Assembly (NCBI GenBank): GCA_021828635.1
Contig: JAJZEJ010000637.1
Location: 1 to 5,731 of the forward strand
DNA length: 5,731 nucleotides
DNA from: Chloroflexota bacterium
GTDB taxonomy: Bacteria; Chloroflexota; Ktedonobacteria; Ktedonobacterales; Ktedonobacteraceae
Direction of reading: 5' to 3'
The translations under genes and the position numbers were made by a program. Below, piece by piece: positions 1 to 5,660 of this stretch (its first letter is position 1; the number at the start of each line of letters is the position of its first letter). The notes under the pieces were generated by a model that worked only from the letters and a program-made list of their open reading frames with translations, made no database searches and had not been told where the DNA came from.

Positions 1-161
1 TTCCGATCTGACCTCGGAGAAATGACAGCACAGGCTTCCGATTCTGAATGGTCTTCAAAGAAAGAAGAACATAAGGGCGTTTTCTTGCCCGGTTCTGTTT
101 TCTGAACACCATGAGGTCGAGAACAGATTGTACCGAATTGCATCTACAAGGAGTGAACACG
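1..161. other. Upstream leader of the DinB gene / contig edge
   Basis: No gene is seen here. Bases 1-9 (TTCCGATCT) equal the last nine bases of the common Illumina adapter and may not be genomic. A weak hairpin (GGGC at 75-78, GCCC at 87-90) is followed by a T-rich stretch and could be the tail of a terminator for a gene lying to the left, but its stem is only 4 bp. I find no convincing -35/-10 pair for the DinB gene. An in-frame ATG at 111 exists but has no ribosome binding site, unlike the one at 162. Confidence 0.4.
148..153 (+). promoter_or_regulatory. Ribosome binding site of the DinB-family gene
   Basis: AAGGAG ends 8 nt before the ATG at 162. This decides the start: the earlier in-frame ATG at 111 would add 17 residues but has no Shine-Dalgarno sequence in front of it. 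Confidence 0.8.
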
Positions 162-668
162 ATGAGTGAAACAAGCGAAACGTTGGCTTTCTTTACCCAT
201 GGCTGGCAAAACTACCAGAAGCACTTGAGTATATCCCTCGCTCGACTCACACCAGAGCAGCTTACGCTGCGTGCCGCACCGAATCTACGTTCCATCGAAG
301 AGCTGGCGCATCATATCATTGCGGTGCGGGCCGGGTGGTTTCACTACCAATTAGAAGAGGGAGGTGAGGAGTTGCGTACGTTTACAACGTGGGGTGAGCC
401 TGAGAGTCCGCCGTGTTCAGCGGAGGAACTGGTGAGTGGATTGGAACACACCTGGCAGGTTATACAGGATGTGCTGGGACGCTATACGCTCGCGGATTTG
501 CGGTCCACTGTCCAGGACGAGTGGAACGGCAATATCTCCACCCTCAGCCGCGGCTGGGTTCTCTGGCATGTCCTGCAACACGACCTGCATCACGGCGGCG
601 AGATTGCCTATTCCCTCGGAATGCACGGCCTTCCTGCCCTATCTAATACCGACTTATATGGTGAGTGA
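162..668 (+). CDS. DinB-family protein (putative metal-dependent enzyme)
   Basis: A 168-residue protein, the usual length for the DinB/YfiT-like four-helix-bundle superfamily, whose members use three histidines to hold a divalent metal. Many are thiol-dependent transferases or hydrolases, and many have no known reaction. Seen here: His50/His51 at the end of an 'SIEELAHH' helix, in the place of the first ligand, and an 'HVLQHDLHHGGEI' segment (136-148) offering His136, His140 and His143/144 for the HxxxH pair near the C-terminus. Trp- and Phe-rich segments (WF at 59-60, GWVLWH at 131-136) fit the packed helical core. There is no signal peptide or membrane segment, so it should be cytosolic. 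It stands alone: no gene is close downstream on the same strand and no partner gene suggests a substrate. The family call is secure; the substrate is unknown. Confidence 0.85.
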   Translation: MSETSETLAFFTHGWQNYQKHLSISLARLTPEQLTLRAAPNLRSIEELAHHIIAVRAGWFHYQLEEGGEELRTFTTWGEPESPPCSAEELVSGLEHTWQVIQDVLGRYTLADLRSTVQDEWNGNISTLSRGWVLWHVLQHDLHHGGEIAYSLGMHGLPALSNTDLYGE

Positions 669-1058: not shown

Positions 1059-1073
1059 CCTGTTTATCCGTAC
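1059..1073 (+). repeat. Left copy of a 15-bp inverted repeat
   Basis: CCTGTTTATCCGTAC here is the exact reverse complement of GTACGGATAAACAGG at 3050-3064. Read inward from each end, both copies start CCTGTTTATC, as terminal inverted repeats or head-to-head recombination sites would. The left copy contains the stop codon of the minus-strand HTH gene. No flanking target-site duplication is visible. A perfect 15-bp match is unlikely by chance in a window this size, but not impossible. Confidence 0.55.
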
Positions 1074-1855
1074 TCTTCAGAAAGGTAGAGCATCGGCGCT
1101 TCTCCTGCATCAGCCTCCGAAGATGCCGTTTGGTGAGGGCAATGAGGACAGAGGGTAGAGGCAAGAGCGTGCTGTTGGGCGTAGAGCAGCGTCGCGTCCT
1201 GTTGTTGTGGGGTAATCCACCATTCCTGTTTATTGCGGATCGCTCCCTCCCGATCAATCAGAGCGAACTGGAGTGCGCCTGCCAAGCGTAACTTCTTGAG
1301 CTGATAGAGGTTCATAGAATGTTGAGACGCGAAATCTGCCAGCGTTGTGGAACCAGAGGGAAGGTGCCGCTTTTCCAGACGGCTCAGGTGTGGTAACGCA
1401 TACTGTGGGCGCAGGAGCGAGAGCAAGTGCAGGGCTTCTGGCCGTGCAAGTGGGAGTGGCGACATCGAAGACGAGAAGGAGGTTGTCTCGCTCTGCTGTT
1501 GCTCCATCGCCAGAGCAGCGATGAGAGTCGTGAGGTGTTCAACGTGTTCTTGCACGCGACGAAGCTGCTCTTTCAGCGAGCGTAAGTCCTGAACCTGTGC
1601 CTTGAGATCAGCTACCTCCTGAACCAGTGCAGCCAAGGAATTTTCTTCCTCCTGCTCCTGCACTGGATATTTTTCCAGGTAGGCGTAGACCTCATCGGCG
1701 GCGATACGGAGGCGATTTTTACGATCATGACTGGCCGCCAGTTCACCACGCTCAATGCGGCGATAGATGGTGCGCGGATTGCACCGCATGAGGTGTGCTG
1801 CTTCGGCTCCGGTGAGATACGTGCGTCCTTCACGATGGTTCTGCTGTTTGGCCAT
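1064..1855 (-). CDS. Excisionase/MerR-like HTH protein with coiled coil
   Basis: A 263-residue predicted DNA-binding protein. Residues 13-60 form an excisionase-type winged HTH ('YLTGAEAAHLMRCNPRTIYR', then 'RIERGELAAS' and 'RIAADEVYAYLEKY'), the fold of Xis and BldC/MerR N-termini. Residues 66-120 are rich in Glu, Gln, Leu and Lys with heptad spacing, a likely coiled coil for self-association. A Ser/Pro linker (122-138) leads to a second region (168-230, 'TTLADFASQHSMNLYQLKKL') that resembles another HTH. The tail holds CPHC and a nearby His (236-241), a possible but unproven metal site. I chose the ATG at 1855 because GGGGAG precedes it and the HTH begins soon after; an upstream ATG at 1972 lacks both. 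The gene reads away from an array of TGTCATGACA palindromes, the natural candidate for its target. The role could be repressor, partition adaptor, replication initiator or excisionase. The fold is fairly sure, the function is not. Confidence 0.75.
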   Translation of the reverse strand: MAKQQNHREGRTYLTGAEAAHLMRCNPRTIYRRIERGELAASHDRKNRLRIAADEVYAYLEKYPVQEQEEENSLAALVQEVADLKAQVQDLRSLKEQLRRVQEHVEHLTTLIAALAMEQQQSETTSFSSSMSPLPLARPEALHLLSLLRPQYALPHLSRLEKRHLPSGSTTLADFASQHSMNLYQLKKLRLAGALQFALIDREGAIRNKQEWWITPQQQDATLLYAQQHALASTLCPHCPHQTASSEADAGEAPMLYLSEEYG

Positions 1856-1857
1856 AG

Positions 1858-1863
1858 CTCCCC
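1858..1863 (-). promoter_or_regulatory. Ribosome binding site of the HTH gene
   Basis: On the minus strand GAAAGGGGAG lies just before ATG 1855. The GGGGAG core is only 2 nt from the start, though AAAGG a little upstream has more normal spacing. It supports the start at 1855 over the longer frame. Confidence 0.5.
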
Positions 1864-1961
1864 TTTCTTGGCGCGGTGAGGTGCGTCCATCAGATGAGAA
1901 CAACGTTTCCAGAAGAGATATACGCTTGATTGGGAGGAAAAGTTGCAATCGTAGTGAACGG

Positions 1962-2429
1962 TGTCGTGACACGAAGAGACCATATGAAGCATGGTAGGGT
2001 GATGATGATCCCTACACGTGTCATGACAGGCCGTAAACAACGCCACTCTCGGCACACAGGAAACGTTCATGACAGGTCATCTAAGCTGGTGGAGACTGCT
2101 GTAATGTCTGTCATAATACGCCGGTGCGAGCGAAGAGGCATGGAGCATGCCCATCATGACAAGTCGCACTTCTTGGGGCGTGAGGGAGTCAGGATGGTGA
2201 GAGGTGTCATGACAGGCCATCACCTGTGCGGGAAGAGTAGCACTTGCTCGAAGCTCCGAAGCGATACGCCAGCATCCTCTCTGGTCATGACACGCCTCAC
2301 CAGTGATTCTAAGGATGGGTTCCACGGTCATGACAGGCCGCACAGAGCGCGTGGCAAGCATGGTGGGGGTGTCATGACAGCACCGCACCTTCTGGCCTCC
2401 TGCACAGTGTGTGCTGTCATGACATGACA
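1962..2429. repeat. Array of TGTCATGACA palindromes (operator, iteron or centromere-like)
   Basis: Ten-base sites start at 1962 (TGTCGTGACA), 2019, 2065 (GTTCATGACA), 2109 (TGTCATAATA, half), 2152 (CATCATGACA), 2205, 2283 (GGTCATGACA), 2326 (GGTCATGACA), 2370, 2415, and overlapping at 2420 (TGACATGACA). Those at 2019, 2205, 2370 and 2415 are perfect palindromes. TCATGACA occurs eight times, always in the same orientation, and is often followed by GGCC. Most steps are 43-46 bp, about four helical turns, so many sites face the same side of the DNA; the steps 1962-2019, 2152-2205 and 2205-2283 are longer. Sequence between the sites is not conserved apart from scattered 'AGCATGG' or 'AGGATGG' just upstream. 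Regular iteration of a palindrome next to a DNA-binding protein gene is typical of partition centromeres, iteron origins and large operators. The array ends 45 bp before the -35 box of the promoter at 2475. Confidence 0.85.
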
Positions 2430-2474
2430 CTGTTTATAGAAACAAAATGCGTTTTTACGTCGAAAAACACTCTA

Positions 2475-2503
2475 TTGACAAATGACTCCCTATCAGTTAT
2501 AGT
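2475..2503 (+). promoter_or_regulatory. Strong sigma70-type promoter of the RNA-like region
   Basis: TTGACA (2475-2480), a 17-nt spacer, then TATAGT (2498-2503): perfect -35, 5/6 -10 and ideal spacing. Transcription would start near 2510. An 11-bp dyad, ATAG-TAT-CTAT (2499-2509), overlaps the -10 and the likely start site. The local sequence is AT-rich. It shares ATCAG just before the -10 with the promoter at 4221. It points away from the array into a region with no convincing protein. Confidence 0.8.
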
Positions 2504-2509
2504 ATCTAT

Positions 2510-3010
2510 GTGTTTTGGGATGACTCCTCCATGATGGAGTTGCAGTGATGCACCGCTGCCCCGTGACCTGCTCCGGGAAAGGTCTCAGGAATTCGGTGGC
2601 CTGGATATCGCTGGCTTGAGTGGTACTCGCCGGATATCGAAGCATCGACAGGGGGTGTTTCACCTGATGGATACTTGTCTACGAGGCAACTCGCAGGCAA
2701 GGAAGGAGTGTTGCATCTGTAACGCTCTCCATAAAGCAAACAGGGCGGCATCGGCCCGATCTGGTTCACCAGGTCAATGATGGGTGTGGCTCTCCTGACG
2801 AGCGTGGCCTGGTCTTCCTGAGAGACTGGTACACATCGCACCTGGCGATGTCTGGGATACTCAGCAGTTTCTGAGTGGTCGTTGCCAACGGCTGTCGCTT
2901 GTAGCGATGGTATGTAGGGTATGGAGCGTGCGGACCTGCTAGCGGTACGTGTCCTCTGGCAGGAATGGATGTCGTTTTCGTAGGGTTGCCATCCCACCCC
3001 AAACGGGGTG
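2510..3010 (+). ncRNA. Candidate structured non-coding RNA (or structured leader)
   Basis: Follows a near-consensus promoter, yet no plausible protein is encoded on either strand; the antisense frame of 179 codons lacks protein-like composition. Compact hairpins come one after another: 2604-2638 (GATATC pairing with itself, TGGC/GCCG and GAGT/ACTC around a GGT loop), 2682-2693 (CGAG, GCAA tetraloop of GNRA type, CTCG), 2705-2728 (8 bp, 8-nt loop), 2768-2775 with 2806-2813 (8 bp), 2833-2851 (ACATCGC/GCGATGT, 5-nt loop), 2859-2876 (ACTCAG/CTGAGT), 2880-2890, 2892-2910 (7 bp with wobbles), 2935-2963 (CCTGC/GCAGG) and 2995-3010 (CACCCC-AAAC-GGGGTG). No T-run follows the last stem, so the 3' end is unknown and the RNA could run on as a ~600-nt leader of the recombinase mRNA. 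It matches no family I recognise: no RNase P, tmRNA or group II domain V signature is visible. Some hairpins are expected by chance in sequence of this composition. Confidence 0.45.
2995..3010 (+). other. Perfect 6-bp stem-loop at the end of the RNA-like region
   Basis: CACCCC, loop AAAC, GGGGTG. It is GC-rich and stable, but no T-tract follows, so it is not a standard intrinsic terminator. It may be the 3' closing hairpin of the candidate RNA or a processing site. Confidence 0.45.
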
Positions 3011-3105
3011 CTTCCTGACCCGTTACTCATGGCTTGCAAGCTCATTGATGTACGGATAAACAGGAAAGTAGGTCAAGGCAGGATCGAGGAGCGTCGGCGA
3101 GACCT
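3011..3105. other. Spacer before the recombinase reading frame
   Basis: Contains the right copy of the 15-bp inverted repeat (3050-3064) and GAGGAG at 3086-3091, a Shine-Dalgarno-like sequence 14 nt before the ATG at 3106, which is longer than usual spacing. Nothing else is recognised. Confidence 0.35.
3050..3064 (-). repeat. Right copy of the 15-bp inverted repeat
   Basis: GTACGGATAAACAGG, the exact reverse complement of 1059-1073. The two copies enclose 2006 bp holding the HTH gene, the palindrome array and the RNA-like region. This copy lies about 40 bp upstream of the probable true start of the recombinase, a common position for a recombinase's own site. Confidence 0.55.
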
Positions 3106-3226
3106 ATGGAAGCAGCTTCGAAAAATTCTCAACGTGCTACTGTTCTGCTAGTTTCTCGACAAGGAGCCAACTACGGGCAAACGACCTGGGGCCAAATATG
3201 CTGCCATCCAGCGTCTTGATGCGCAG
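3106..3226 (+). pseudogene. Out-of-frame N-terminus of the tyrosine recombinase
   Basis: From ATG 3106 one frame reads 24 codons ending 'LLVSRQGANYG' at 3177. The main recombinase frame, open only after the TAG at 3149, reads 'GKRPGAKYAAIQRLDAQ' (3176-3226) directly into Met 3227. That segment is typical of the N-terminus of integrase domain-containing tyrosine recombinases, yet it has no ATG, GTG or TTG of its own. Dropping one base near 3178 joins the two frames into a smooth 317-residue protein ('GANYG' then 'KRPGAKY'). So there is an apparent +1 frameshift here, from mutation, sequencing error or programmed slippage. Confidence 0.6.
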
Positions 3227-4060
3227 ATGGGCATTGGACAAAAACGTTCTCTGGCCAAAGATGAGGCCAGAGCGCGCGGCGAATCCCTCTTTGCCTTTTC
3301 CGATGGCAAGATTCATTCCTTCGAGACGCGCAATAACTATCAGAAGATCGTCATGCGTTTTATTGACTGGTGCCGTGATACCCAGCAGGTTCGTGACCTC
3401 GACAAGATCACCGAGCAGGCCGATGAGCTGGTCTCGCTCTACCTGATCGAGCGCATGGAAAACACGGAGCGACAGTATAGTGCCTGGACGCTTCAGACGG
3501 AACGCTCAGGGTTACGCCAATTCTTTCAGGATCATACGCTAGCTGATAGCGTGGAATTGCCACCGCGACGACGTGAAGATATTAAACGTTCACGCCTGCC
3601 CGCCAAACGGGATAGCCATATCAATCTGGACAATTGGCAACACGTCATCACGTTTTGCTTGGCCTGTGGGTTGCGCCGTGAGGAACTGCGTGATCTGCGT
3701 GTGCGTGATGTCTTGGTGCAACCGTCGGATCAGCAGCTGGTGGTGCGTGTCGTCAAAGGCAAGGGGGGGAAATACCGCGCAGTTCCTGCCTTTCCTGGCC
3801 GAGAGCAGGCCATTCTGTCTCAGGTGATAGGCAAAGAGGCAGATGCCCCGGTCTTTGAGCGTCTCTCCAGCTTGCTCGATATTCACAGCTACCGGCGACA
3901 ATTTGCACAAGAATTGTATGAGCATCTCTCTGGTTGCCCGTTACCACCGAAGGAAGGGCGTCTGCACTCGCCCGATCTGGACCGGCGTGCAGCCCTCTTT
4001 GTGTCACAATGCCTGGGGCATAATCGTATCGAGATTATCTTTGGGCATTATATTCGTTGA
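3227..4060 (+). CDS. Tyrosine recombinase / integrase
   Basis: Cuts and rejoins DNA at specific sites through a 3'-phosphotyrosyl intermediate, as phage integrases and XerC/D do. The 277 residues seen contain a SAM-like core-binding domain (about 30-108, 'HSFETRNNYQKIVMRFIDW', 'TLQTERSGLRQFF') and a catalytic domain (about 130-277). All active-site residues are present: Arg150 in GLRREE, Lys179 in the KGKGGK beta-hairpin, His220 and Arg223 in HSYRRQFA, His265 in LGHNR and the nucleophile Tyr275 in GHYIR at the extreme C-terminus. The ATG at 3227 has no ribosome binding site, and coding similarity continues upstream, so the native start is probably 3106 with a 1-nt frameshift between. If translated only from 3227 it would lose about 40 N-terminal residues but keep both domains. 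Expression could come from the promoter at 2475. Its substrate sites may be the 15-bp inverted repeats or the hairpins downstream; neither is shown. Confidence 0.9.
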   Translation: MGIGQKRSLAKDEARARGESLFAFSDGKIHSFETRNNYQKIVMRFIDWCRDTQQVRDLDKITEQADELVSLYLIERMENTERQYSAWTLQTERSGLRQFFQDHTLADSVELPPRRREDIKRSRLPAKRDSHINLDNWQHVITFCLACGLRREELRDLRVRDVLVQPSDQQLVVRVVKGKGGKYRAVPAFPGREQAILSQVIGKEADAPVFERLSSLLDIHSYRRQFAQELYEHLSGCPLPPKEGRLHSPDLDRRAALFVSQCLGHNRIEIIFGHYIR

Positions 4061-4154: not shown

Positions 4155-4209
4155 GAATAGCAATATGAATACTCAGAGTGAATCTCTCTGGGTATTCATA
4201 TTGCTATTC
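4155..4209. repeat. Long hairpin with a 24-bp stem (MITE-like or bidirectional terminator)
   Basis: The left arm 4155-4178 (GAATAGCAATATGAATAC, then TCAGAG) pairs with the right arm 4186-4209 over 24 positions, with a single T-G wobble and a 7-nt loop (TGAATCT). The 18-bp outer part is a perfect inverted repeat. It is AT-rich and lies between the recombinase and the promoter at 4221. Only scattered Ts follow, so terminator function is possible but not typical. The long perfect stem also fits a small palindromic mobile element or a folded recombination site. No target duplication is visible. Confidence 0.8.
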
Positions 4210-4795: not shown

Positions 4796-4816
4796 CCGAA
4801 GGGCTGACCAATTTTT

Positions 4817-4854
4817 CACTGAAGGGTGAAACTTTGCACTGAAGGGTGAAACTT
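4817..4854. repeat. Two-copy tandem repeat, 20-bp period
   Basis: CACTGAAGGGTGAAACTT occurs at 4817-4834 and again at 4837-4854, separated by 2 nt. It begins 21 bp after the stop codon of the truncated restriction gene and may mark the insertion or deletion junction. No gene covers it. Confidence 0.85.
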
Positions 4855-4955: not shown

Positions 4956-5660
4956 CTATACAAGTTCAAGATGCTTCTTTTGCTCTTCTGTCAGGGACAA
5001 TGTGCTGACATCATTTTGTGAGAGTCTTGCTCCACTAAGATCAGCTCCACTGAAGTCAGCTCCACTGAGATTAGTGTCTCTGAGGTCAACTCCGCTGAGG
5101 TTGGCATAGCTGAGGTCAGCTCCGCTGAGGTCGGCCCCTCTGAGGTCAGCGCTACTAAGGTCAGATTCGATAAATTCGGCTCCCCTGAAGTCGGCATTGC
5201 TGAGGTCGGCTTTTCGGAGGCAGGCTCCGCTCAGGTCAGCTTTGCTAAAGTAGGTCCCTCTGAGGTCGGCCCCAGTGAGGTTGGCTCTGGTGAAGTCAGA
5301 TTTTGTGAGGCTGGCCCCGCTGAGATGGGCTCCAGTGAGATCGGATTCGGCGAAGCCGGCTCCAGTGAGATCGGCTCTAGTGAGATGGGCTCCAGTGAGA
5401 TCGGTTTTGTAGAAGAAGGTTCCGCAAAGGAAGGCTTCAGTGAGGTTGGCCCCGCTAAGGTTGGCTCTCCTGAGATCAGCATGGCTCAAGTCAAACTTAC
5501 TGAGATTAACCTGTGTGAGAAGAGCTCCGGAGAAATTCGCCTGGCACAATGAGATAATGCTCTCTCCTTTTTCGGGACTCACCAGCTTTGCTTCACGTAA
5601 AAAGGAAAAGACATGGTTTTGCTGTTGTTTGTCGCATAAAACTTCGTTTTTCTGACGCAT
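4956..5660 (-). CDS. Pentapeptide-repeat protein, 35 uninterrupted repeats
   Basis: A 234-residue protein. Residues 41-215 are 35 consecutive five-residue repeats of the A(D/N)LSG type (for example ADLSG at 141 and ANLSG at 66), with Leu or Phe in every central position. Such tracts fold into a right-handed quadrilateral beta-helix; 35 repeats make almost nine turns. Residues 1-40 ('NHVFSFLREAKLVSPEKGESIISL') resemble the short segment that joins the helix to an N-terminal domain in longer family members, so this may be a trimmed form. Residues 216-234 are a charged C-terminal cap. There is no signal peptide or membrane helix. The start at 5660 is the only ATG before an in-frame TGA about 40 bases upstream; a weak GGAAAAGA sits before it. 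The family includes DNA-mimicking gyrase protectors (Qnr, MfpA), but most members have no known role, and nothing here points to gyrase. Confidence 0.85.
   Translation of the reverse strand: MRQKNEVLCDKQQQNHVFSFLREAKLVSPEKGESIISLCQANFSGALLTQVNLSKFDLSHADLRRANLSGANLTEAFLCGTFFYKTDLTGAHLTRADLTGAGFAESDLTGAHLSGASLTKSDFTRANLTGADLRGTYFSKADLSGACLRKADLSNADFRGAEFIESDLSSADLRGADLSGADLSYANLSGVDLRDTNLSGADFSGADLSGARLSQNDVSTLSLTEEQKKHLELV

Follow-up and report, generated by a model that had tools for sequence, protein, structure and literature searches.

An array of ten directional 13-bp sites beside an excisionase-family gene, upstream of a structured RNA element and a tyrosine integrase gene in Ktedonobacteria

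RdfS of ICEMlSym-R7A binds upstream of intS, activates this gene and drives excision (PMC11963761). It is the nearest working precedent for the control of an integrase promoter by an array-bound protein, as considered here for a locus in a window of 5,731 nucleotides (the whole stretch of DNA that was analysed) from a member of the Ktedonobacteraceae. RdfS forms filaments and has no apparent consensus motif, whereas the window contains a 13-bp site repeated mostly every 44 bp. The 263-residue protein encoded next to these sites at positions 1064-1855 also differs from the small single-winged-helix proteins Xis and RdfS, whose solved chains have 54 and 67 residues, in that its model shows an extended helix and, in addition, another winged helix-turn-helix (wHTH) domain. 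BldC of Streptomyces lacks a coiled coil and binds head-to-tail on adjacent repeats, whereas here the sites are mostly 43-46 bp apart and the protein model has a 55-residue helix, which places the protein outside the BldC family.

Classical MerR regulators, which pair a wHTH with an antiparallel coiled-coil dimer, bind one site between the -35 and -10 promoter elements. Members such as MtaN and SoxR are described as joining the wHTH to a long helix used for dimerisation and as binding palindromes as symmetric dimers (PMC5859096). A wHTH and a long helix are predicted in the single-chain model of the 1064-1855 protein, but a second DNA-binding-like domain takes the place of the effector domain, and the sites, 8-10 in number, are all upstream of the promoter. 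The DNA-binding segregation proteins pSK1 Par, RocS and RacA are described as combining a wHTH with a coiled coil (PMC11500499). The 1064-1855 protein gives fold matches to them and is predicted to have the same arrangement of wHTH and coiled coil, a likeness of predicted architecture and domain fold only; its conserved partners, however, are an integrase and a structured RNA, and the DUF536-amphipathic-helix module of Par and RocS was not recognised in it by Pfam, which reports HTH_17 only. The sopC centromere of plasmid F contains, within one locus, around twelve sites formed by short inverted repeats, with a unit of 43 bp. Its layout is described as short inverted repeats within longer iterons (PMC5016525). 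The many short sites in one locus and the 43-bp unit recall the present array, whereas no SopA/SopB-type protein was seen here, the spacers are not conserved and the site is directional.

The array comprises ten sites in one orientation, aimed at the integrase gene.

1962 to 2429, plus strand: array of ten directional sites, consensus GTCATGACANGYC
1963 to 1975, plus strand: site 1
2020 to 2032, plus strand: site 2
2066 to 2078, plus strand: site 3
2110 to 2122, plus strand: site 4 (weak)
2153 to 2165, plus strand: site 5
2206 to 2218, plus strand: site 6, followed by a 75-78 bp step that is also found in both related arrays of genome G023
2284 to 2296, plus strand: site 7, opening a promoter-proximal block of four
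2327 to 2339, plus strand: site 8
2371 to 2383, plus strand: site 9
2416 to 2428, plus strand: site 10, closest to the promoter, with GAC instead of GYC as the third element

With up to two mismatches, TGTCATGACA occurs 15 times in the window, compared with 3.37 ± 1.79 expected from dinucleotide shuffles of the window, none of which (0/200) reached 15. Eleven of these matches (four exact, four with one mismatch and three with two) fall within 1962-2429, and as two of them, at 2415 and 2420, overlap, they represent ten separate sites; the array of the original prediction stands, with its count reduced from eleven. The eight copies of an 8-mer that had been reported were recovered as TCATGACA, which occurs eight times on the plus strand of the window, always within the array. 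The steps between the ten sites are 57, 46, 44, 43, 53, 78, 43, 44 and 45 bp, so that six of the nine have the predicted length of 43-46 bp; same-face helical phasing over the irregular steps was not significant alone (p 0.17). The spacers are unrelated, as had been claimed, their mean pairwise identity being 0.257 against 0.252 ± 0.013 after shuffling. CRISPR arrays consist of near-identical repeats of some 23-50 bp, whereas the conserved unit here is 13 bp long and Tandem Repeats Finder detected no tandem repeat in the array. The unrelated spacers, the lack of tandem repeats and the linkage to the HTH gene described below bear out the earlier view of a binding-site array that is neither a CRISPR nor a duplicated gene.

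Judged from an alignment of 26 sites in three arrays, namely that of the window and those at two G023 loci, L039 and L040, which are related and make the set non-independent, the unit is the directional 13-mer GTCATGACANGYC and not a plain palindrome. From its second base onwards the conserved decamer reads G-T-C-A-T-G-A-C-A, and on its 3' side one free base is followed by G (22/26), a pyrimidine (22/26) and C (23/26). The motif is directional because this G-pyrimidine-C extension is conserved on one side and the first T of the decamer is poorly kept (16 of 26 sites). The palindrome TGTCATGACA, originally proposed as the unit, was dropped on the evidence of this table and of the non-palindromic sites of an orphan array (below). 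In the window, nine of the ten sites have G two bases past the decamer and nine of ten have C four bases past it (binomial 1.4e-4 and 1.9e-5, before correction for the many positions inspected). A site consists of a GTCATGAC core plus the GYC element, and the 13-mer may be readable as three half-sites, GTC, GAC and GYC, five bases apart. Between the arrays of L039 and L040 the sites are 86% identical and the spacers 72%, with the gaps falling in the spacers.

The gene adjoining the array is transcribed away from it.

1064 to 1855, minus strand: HTH_17/excisionase-family DNA-binding protein of 263 aa (Pfam, NCBIfam, AlphaFold2 model)

Its product scores 37.3 bits with Pfam HTH_17 (cut-off 27), the only Pfam family above cut-off, and 31.2 bits with NCBIfam TIGR01764 'excise', above the curated cut-off of 28.8; Pfam found nothing over cut-off in the C-terminal domain searched alone. 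The AlphaFold2 model (mean pLDDT 68.6, with 10-residue blocks mostly at 73-88 in the domains) predicts a wHTH at residues ~12-66, a 55-residue helix at residues 70-124, which is a probable coiled coil, and a second wHTH-like domain at ~168-230; the C-terminus reads CPHCPH. The best structural matches include Xis and RdfS. Named relatives of this protein and of the integrase occur in Ktedonobacteraceae MAGs, Ktedonospora formicarum and Ktedonobacteria bacterium brp13, so that the window is regarded as a metagenome fragment of Ktedonobacteria-like (Chloroflexota) type. The HTH alignment gave no confirmed relative in genome_contigs and viral_contigs, and the protein was not found in the plasmid and phage sets.

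On the other side of the array lies the integrase gene.

3227 to 4060, plus strand: tyrosine integrase of 277 aa from ATG, with homology extending upstream to 3176

Within 3152-3227 the window has ACG where the integrase relatives have the ATG of MGKRPG. Among 47 genomes of the class, matches to the HTH alignment were found in six at E<=1e-6, the full-length ones (two) in G023 only; among 400 genomes of the phylum three matched at E<=1e-9, again full-length in G023 only, with at most six candidates per genome scored. The two G023 homologues, on contigs of 329 and 425 kb (L039 and L040), are both 41% identical to the HTH protein of the window. Each of the three loci carries, one after the other, the HTH gene, the array, a non-coding leader and the integrase gene, and the two genes diverge. 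Each G023 array contains eight sites of the same word, arranged as four at 43-44 bp, a step of 75-76 bp and four more at 43-44 bp; the last eight sites of the window follow this block plan with a middle step of 78 bp.

Searched at E<=1e-20, the integrase family gave 51 matches, which are spread over 16 of the 47 class genomes. The integrase stretches examined (the window, the two G023 loci and 37 others) cover 44 of these matches, the remaining seven being short fragments. The HTH family is present in three of the 40 stretches, namely the window, L039 and L040, and the same three are the ones in which four or more words follow each other at steps of 40-48 bp, while none of 410 block-shuffled controls exceeded three words. 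The array thus accompanies the HTH family at 3/3 loci in the DNA that was covered, which includes the surroundings of one of six homologues from a further protein search, and is present in 0/37 of the other stretches, and this co-occurrence indicates that its linked partner is the HTH gene and not the integrase; the integrase was dropped as a candidate binder, since 37 of the 40 stretches lack the array. The linkage to HTH homologues anticipated by the original prediction was accordingly observed at both full-length G023 homologues, and the 1064-1855 protein is the probable ligand of the array. Two of these 37 stretches, L072 and L094, encode distant relatives of the HTH protein (hhalign probability 92.5 and 94.6%, seven-row profile) and have no array.

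Scans for comparable arrays gave few further candidates. Near other integrase-family members, a step-chain scan found no arrays of four or more copies of another word, and in a palindrome scan (score >=5) the par locus of L016/L072 and GCTGC-rich sequence in L096 were the sole hits apart from the window and the two G023 loci. When the paired motif was relaxed, 10 of 400 Chloroflexota genomes gave a match, whereas a control match was obtained in 2 of 400; by the matched letters, arrays of the kind seen in the window are present in G023 and G003 only, and the G318 match resembles short tandem repeats. Neither the strict paired site nor the integrase was found in viral_contigs, where a looser triple of TCATGACA occurs in 14 stretches; in the 59.7-kb viral contigs L005, L006 and L014 (IMG/VR), TCATGACA recurs with 30-55 bp gaps.

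The sequence between the array and the integrase contains a promoter-like element, an RNA element and a long leader.

2475 to 2503, plus strand: sigma-70-like promoter TTGACA-17-TATAGT, 46 bp past the last site (consensus match only)
2517 to 2590, plus strand: RNA element of three hairpins, with which the transcript expected from this promoter would begin; covariance model R1 scores 76.5 bits, with the window in its training set
2591 to 3172, plus strand: remaining long non-coding leader before the integrase, parts of which can be aligned with L071, L072, L073, L039 and L094

The promoter-like sequence at 2475-2503, with 11 of 12 consensus matches, is the best of three such sites in 1840-3240, where shuffles gave 0.9 ± 1.1. 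The strong promoter of the original prediction is retained as a promoter-like sequence, with the correction that a structured RNA element follows it directly. In an alignment of nine members of this element, which was fitted to the model and includes five rows that trained it, 97.0% of cells pair and 6 of 13 pairs are changed on both sides, values reached by none of 500 shuffles. An unfitted five-row alignment is weaker, its covariation score being reached by 7/500 shuffles and its number of both-side-changed pairs by 68/500. Rfam (E<=1; leaders of the window, L039 and L040) gave no family match except a mir-1909 hit at 2770-2844, with 22.8 bits against a gathering score of 80. Members occur in the window (2517-2590), L039, L040 (two tandem copies), L094, L120, L091 and L072. 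At E<=0.01 the element matches in 7 of the 47 class genomes, the strong matches being the first six rows only (three genomes), while a second RNA model matched in 7 of 30 chosen genomes, with all strong matches at known places and five weaker ones. The integrase leaders that carry it are non-coding and roughly 400-700 nt long.

L039 and L040 share a block of ~80% identity that extends from approximately the HTH stop codon to the end of the RNA element, whereas beyond it their integrases are only 46% identical. This difference suggests that the HTH gene, array, promoter and RNA element travelled together, as a single block, with respect to the integrase. A further locus (L120, on contig C316 of G003) was found by the RNA covariance model with E 1.5e-10 and is absent from its training set. 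Eight variant sites, GTCATGATNTGCC, lie upstream of its RNA element at steps of 43, 66, 34, 43, 43, 44 and 45 bp, a layout that at the far sites is unlike the other arrays, and the G and C of the extension are present in 8/8 sites. On this 13.7-kb contig tblastn gave no match to the HTH proteins or integrases at E<=10. The orphan array is perhaps a remnant, or else a target that is bound in trans. On the most tentative reading (below), array and RNA would be able to move or survive independently of the two genes, and the RNA element may then itself be the regulated product or a recombination crossover region.

The array is probably an upstream binding platform of the MerR/Xis-like 1064-1855 protein that would control the RNA-integrase promoter. 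This is the best account because the array is upstream of the RNA element in 4/4 cases, overlaps no core promoter and is inherited together with the HTH gene; the nearest site lies roughly 85-120 bp before the expected start at the four loci, as estimated from the sequences. Of the functions originally suggested, a large operator fits best, though no site overlaps the promoter core, and the centromere and iteron origin lost ground, no ParA/ParB or Rep being recognised among the five window ORFs searched. The protein would bind the 13-bp sites as dimers joined through the coiled coil, one per approximately four helical turns. With two predicted winged-helix domains per chain, it could reach the additional GYC element or link several sites in a single complex. 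Such a complex would sit just upstream of the promoter for a structured RNA leader reading into the tyrosine integrase gene, and would most likely switch this promoter by activation or silencing from upstream; perhaps it also helps the integrase to build a recombination complex, as RdfS does.

A second element recurs before the integrases. TAAACAG lies 116-200 bp upstream of the integrase in 27 of the 40 loci, whereas 147 kb of control sequence contain it 5 times, and is kept before integrases down to about 41% identity; it is a candidate recombination core or RNA motif. The window has a 15-mer form of it and an inverted copy.

3050 to 3064, plus strand: GTACGGATAAACAGG, local form of the TAAACAG element
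1059 to 1073, minus strand: exact inverted copy of GTACGGATAAACAGG at the 3' end of the HTH gene

This pair encloses the HTH gene, array, promoter and leader and could mark an invertible segment; at L039 and L040 no such inverted copy was observed next to the HTH gene. Alternatively to promoter control, the array might be an assembly site that shapes the attachment region of the integrase, with the HTH protein as an excisionase-type directionality factor and TAAACAG as the core. The 'excise' score over cut-off, the structural matches to Xis and RdfS, the adjoining tyrosine integrase and the position of TAAACAG would agree with this, as would the described binding of RdfS to attP upstream of intS with activation of intS (PMC11963761). 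It is nevertheless rather unlikely, since the array stops ~630 bp short of the TAAACAG element, an array is lacking at 24 of the 27 loci with TAAACAG, L120 keeps the array without an integrase, and one HTH-array block is common to two integrases with only 46% identity.

The coiled-coil protein might instead tether or pair DNA molecules on the array, as a single-protein partition centromere of the pSK1 Par type or a RacA-like anchor. The predicted architecture noted above would suit such a role, but it is distinctly improbable, as the conserved partners of the array are promoter, RNA and integrase, and no ParA or ParB was recognised among the five window ORFs; the 20-kb neighbourhoods of L039 and L040 were surveyed by eye from the ORF list, with Pfam run on five ORFs. 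The appearance of a par locus in this class is illustrated by the 88-kb contig of K. formicarum, which combines ParA, ParB and perfect 18-bp palindromes inside parB. In this locus (L016, 2448-3719) five perfect TGTCTGTAGCTACAGACA palindromes stand at 63-66 bp steps inside parB, three more copies of the TGTCTGTAGCTACAGACA core lie nearby, and the palindromes are a probable parS array.

Direct repeats in one orientation adjoining the gene of a DNA-binding protein, together with a weak match of this protein to the plasmid replication DNA-binding family NF038291, would be compatible with an iteron-type replication origin. This is very improbable, given that the NF038291 score (29 bits) is far under the family cut-off of 85, Pfam recognised no replication initiator among the five window ORFs, the GC content of the array is 55% against 52% for the window, and the G023 arrays are situated on contigs of 329 and 425 kb. 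Although an open frame of 165 aa spans the array, chance or a sequence artefact has a negligible probability, since 0/200 shuffles reach the observed matches and the array is conserved at other loci, and tandem duplication or a coding repeat is ruled out by the unrelated spacers, the lack of a tandem repeat and one-base spacer indels between L039 and L040 that break any frame.

The surroundings of the integrases vary. A helicase of one family follows the integrase in L039 (4809-7373, minus strand), L040 (17211-19121, plus strand), L016 (9431-12031, plus strand) and L094; no such helicase follows the integrase of the window. It belongs to AAA_11 in L039 and L040, and in L039, where the copy resembles MkoA (PADLOC), a WYL regulator and a PLD-domain protein are encoded near it. 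This neighbourhood is possibly defence cargo, the MkoA match not being taken as proof. In the window, the gap that separates the integrase from the following ORF holds a near-perfect 27-bp inverted repeat with a 1-base loop (4155-4209), a pair of adjoining 20-bp direct repeats with 90% identity is found at 4810-4849, and the module is flanked by genes for a pentapeptide-repeat protein (4956-5660, minus strand) and a DinB-like protein (111-668, plus strand).

The upstream binding platform invites a broader and more tentative reading, in which a new mobile-DNA control unit of Ktedonobacteria would be formed by a two-wHTH coiled-coil protein that, on sites spaced by four turns, gates a new RNA leader of a recombinase. 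In the open literature, outside subscription papers, no account of an array-HTH-RNA-integrase system was found. Regular arrays usually suggest centromeres or origins, whereas the array of the window goes together with a promoter, a structured RNA and a tyrosine recombinase. If the proposal is true, a bivalent MerR-like protein would control a mobile element by binding a series of sites at even spacing, the site GTCATGACANGYC, the protein, the promoter and the RNA would form a concrete testable set, and the HTH-array-promoter-RNA block, as a recombining module separable from the integrase, would help to annotate unexplained integrases of the Ktedonobacteria.
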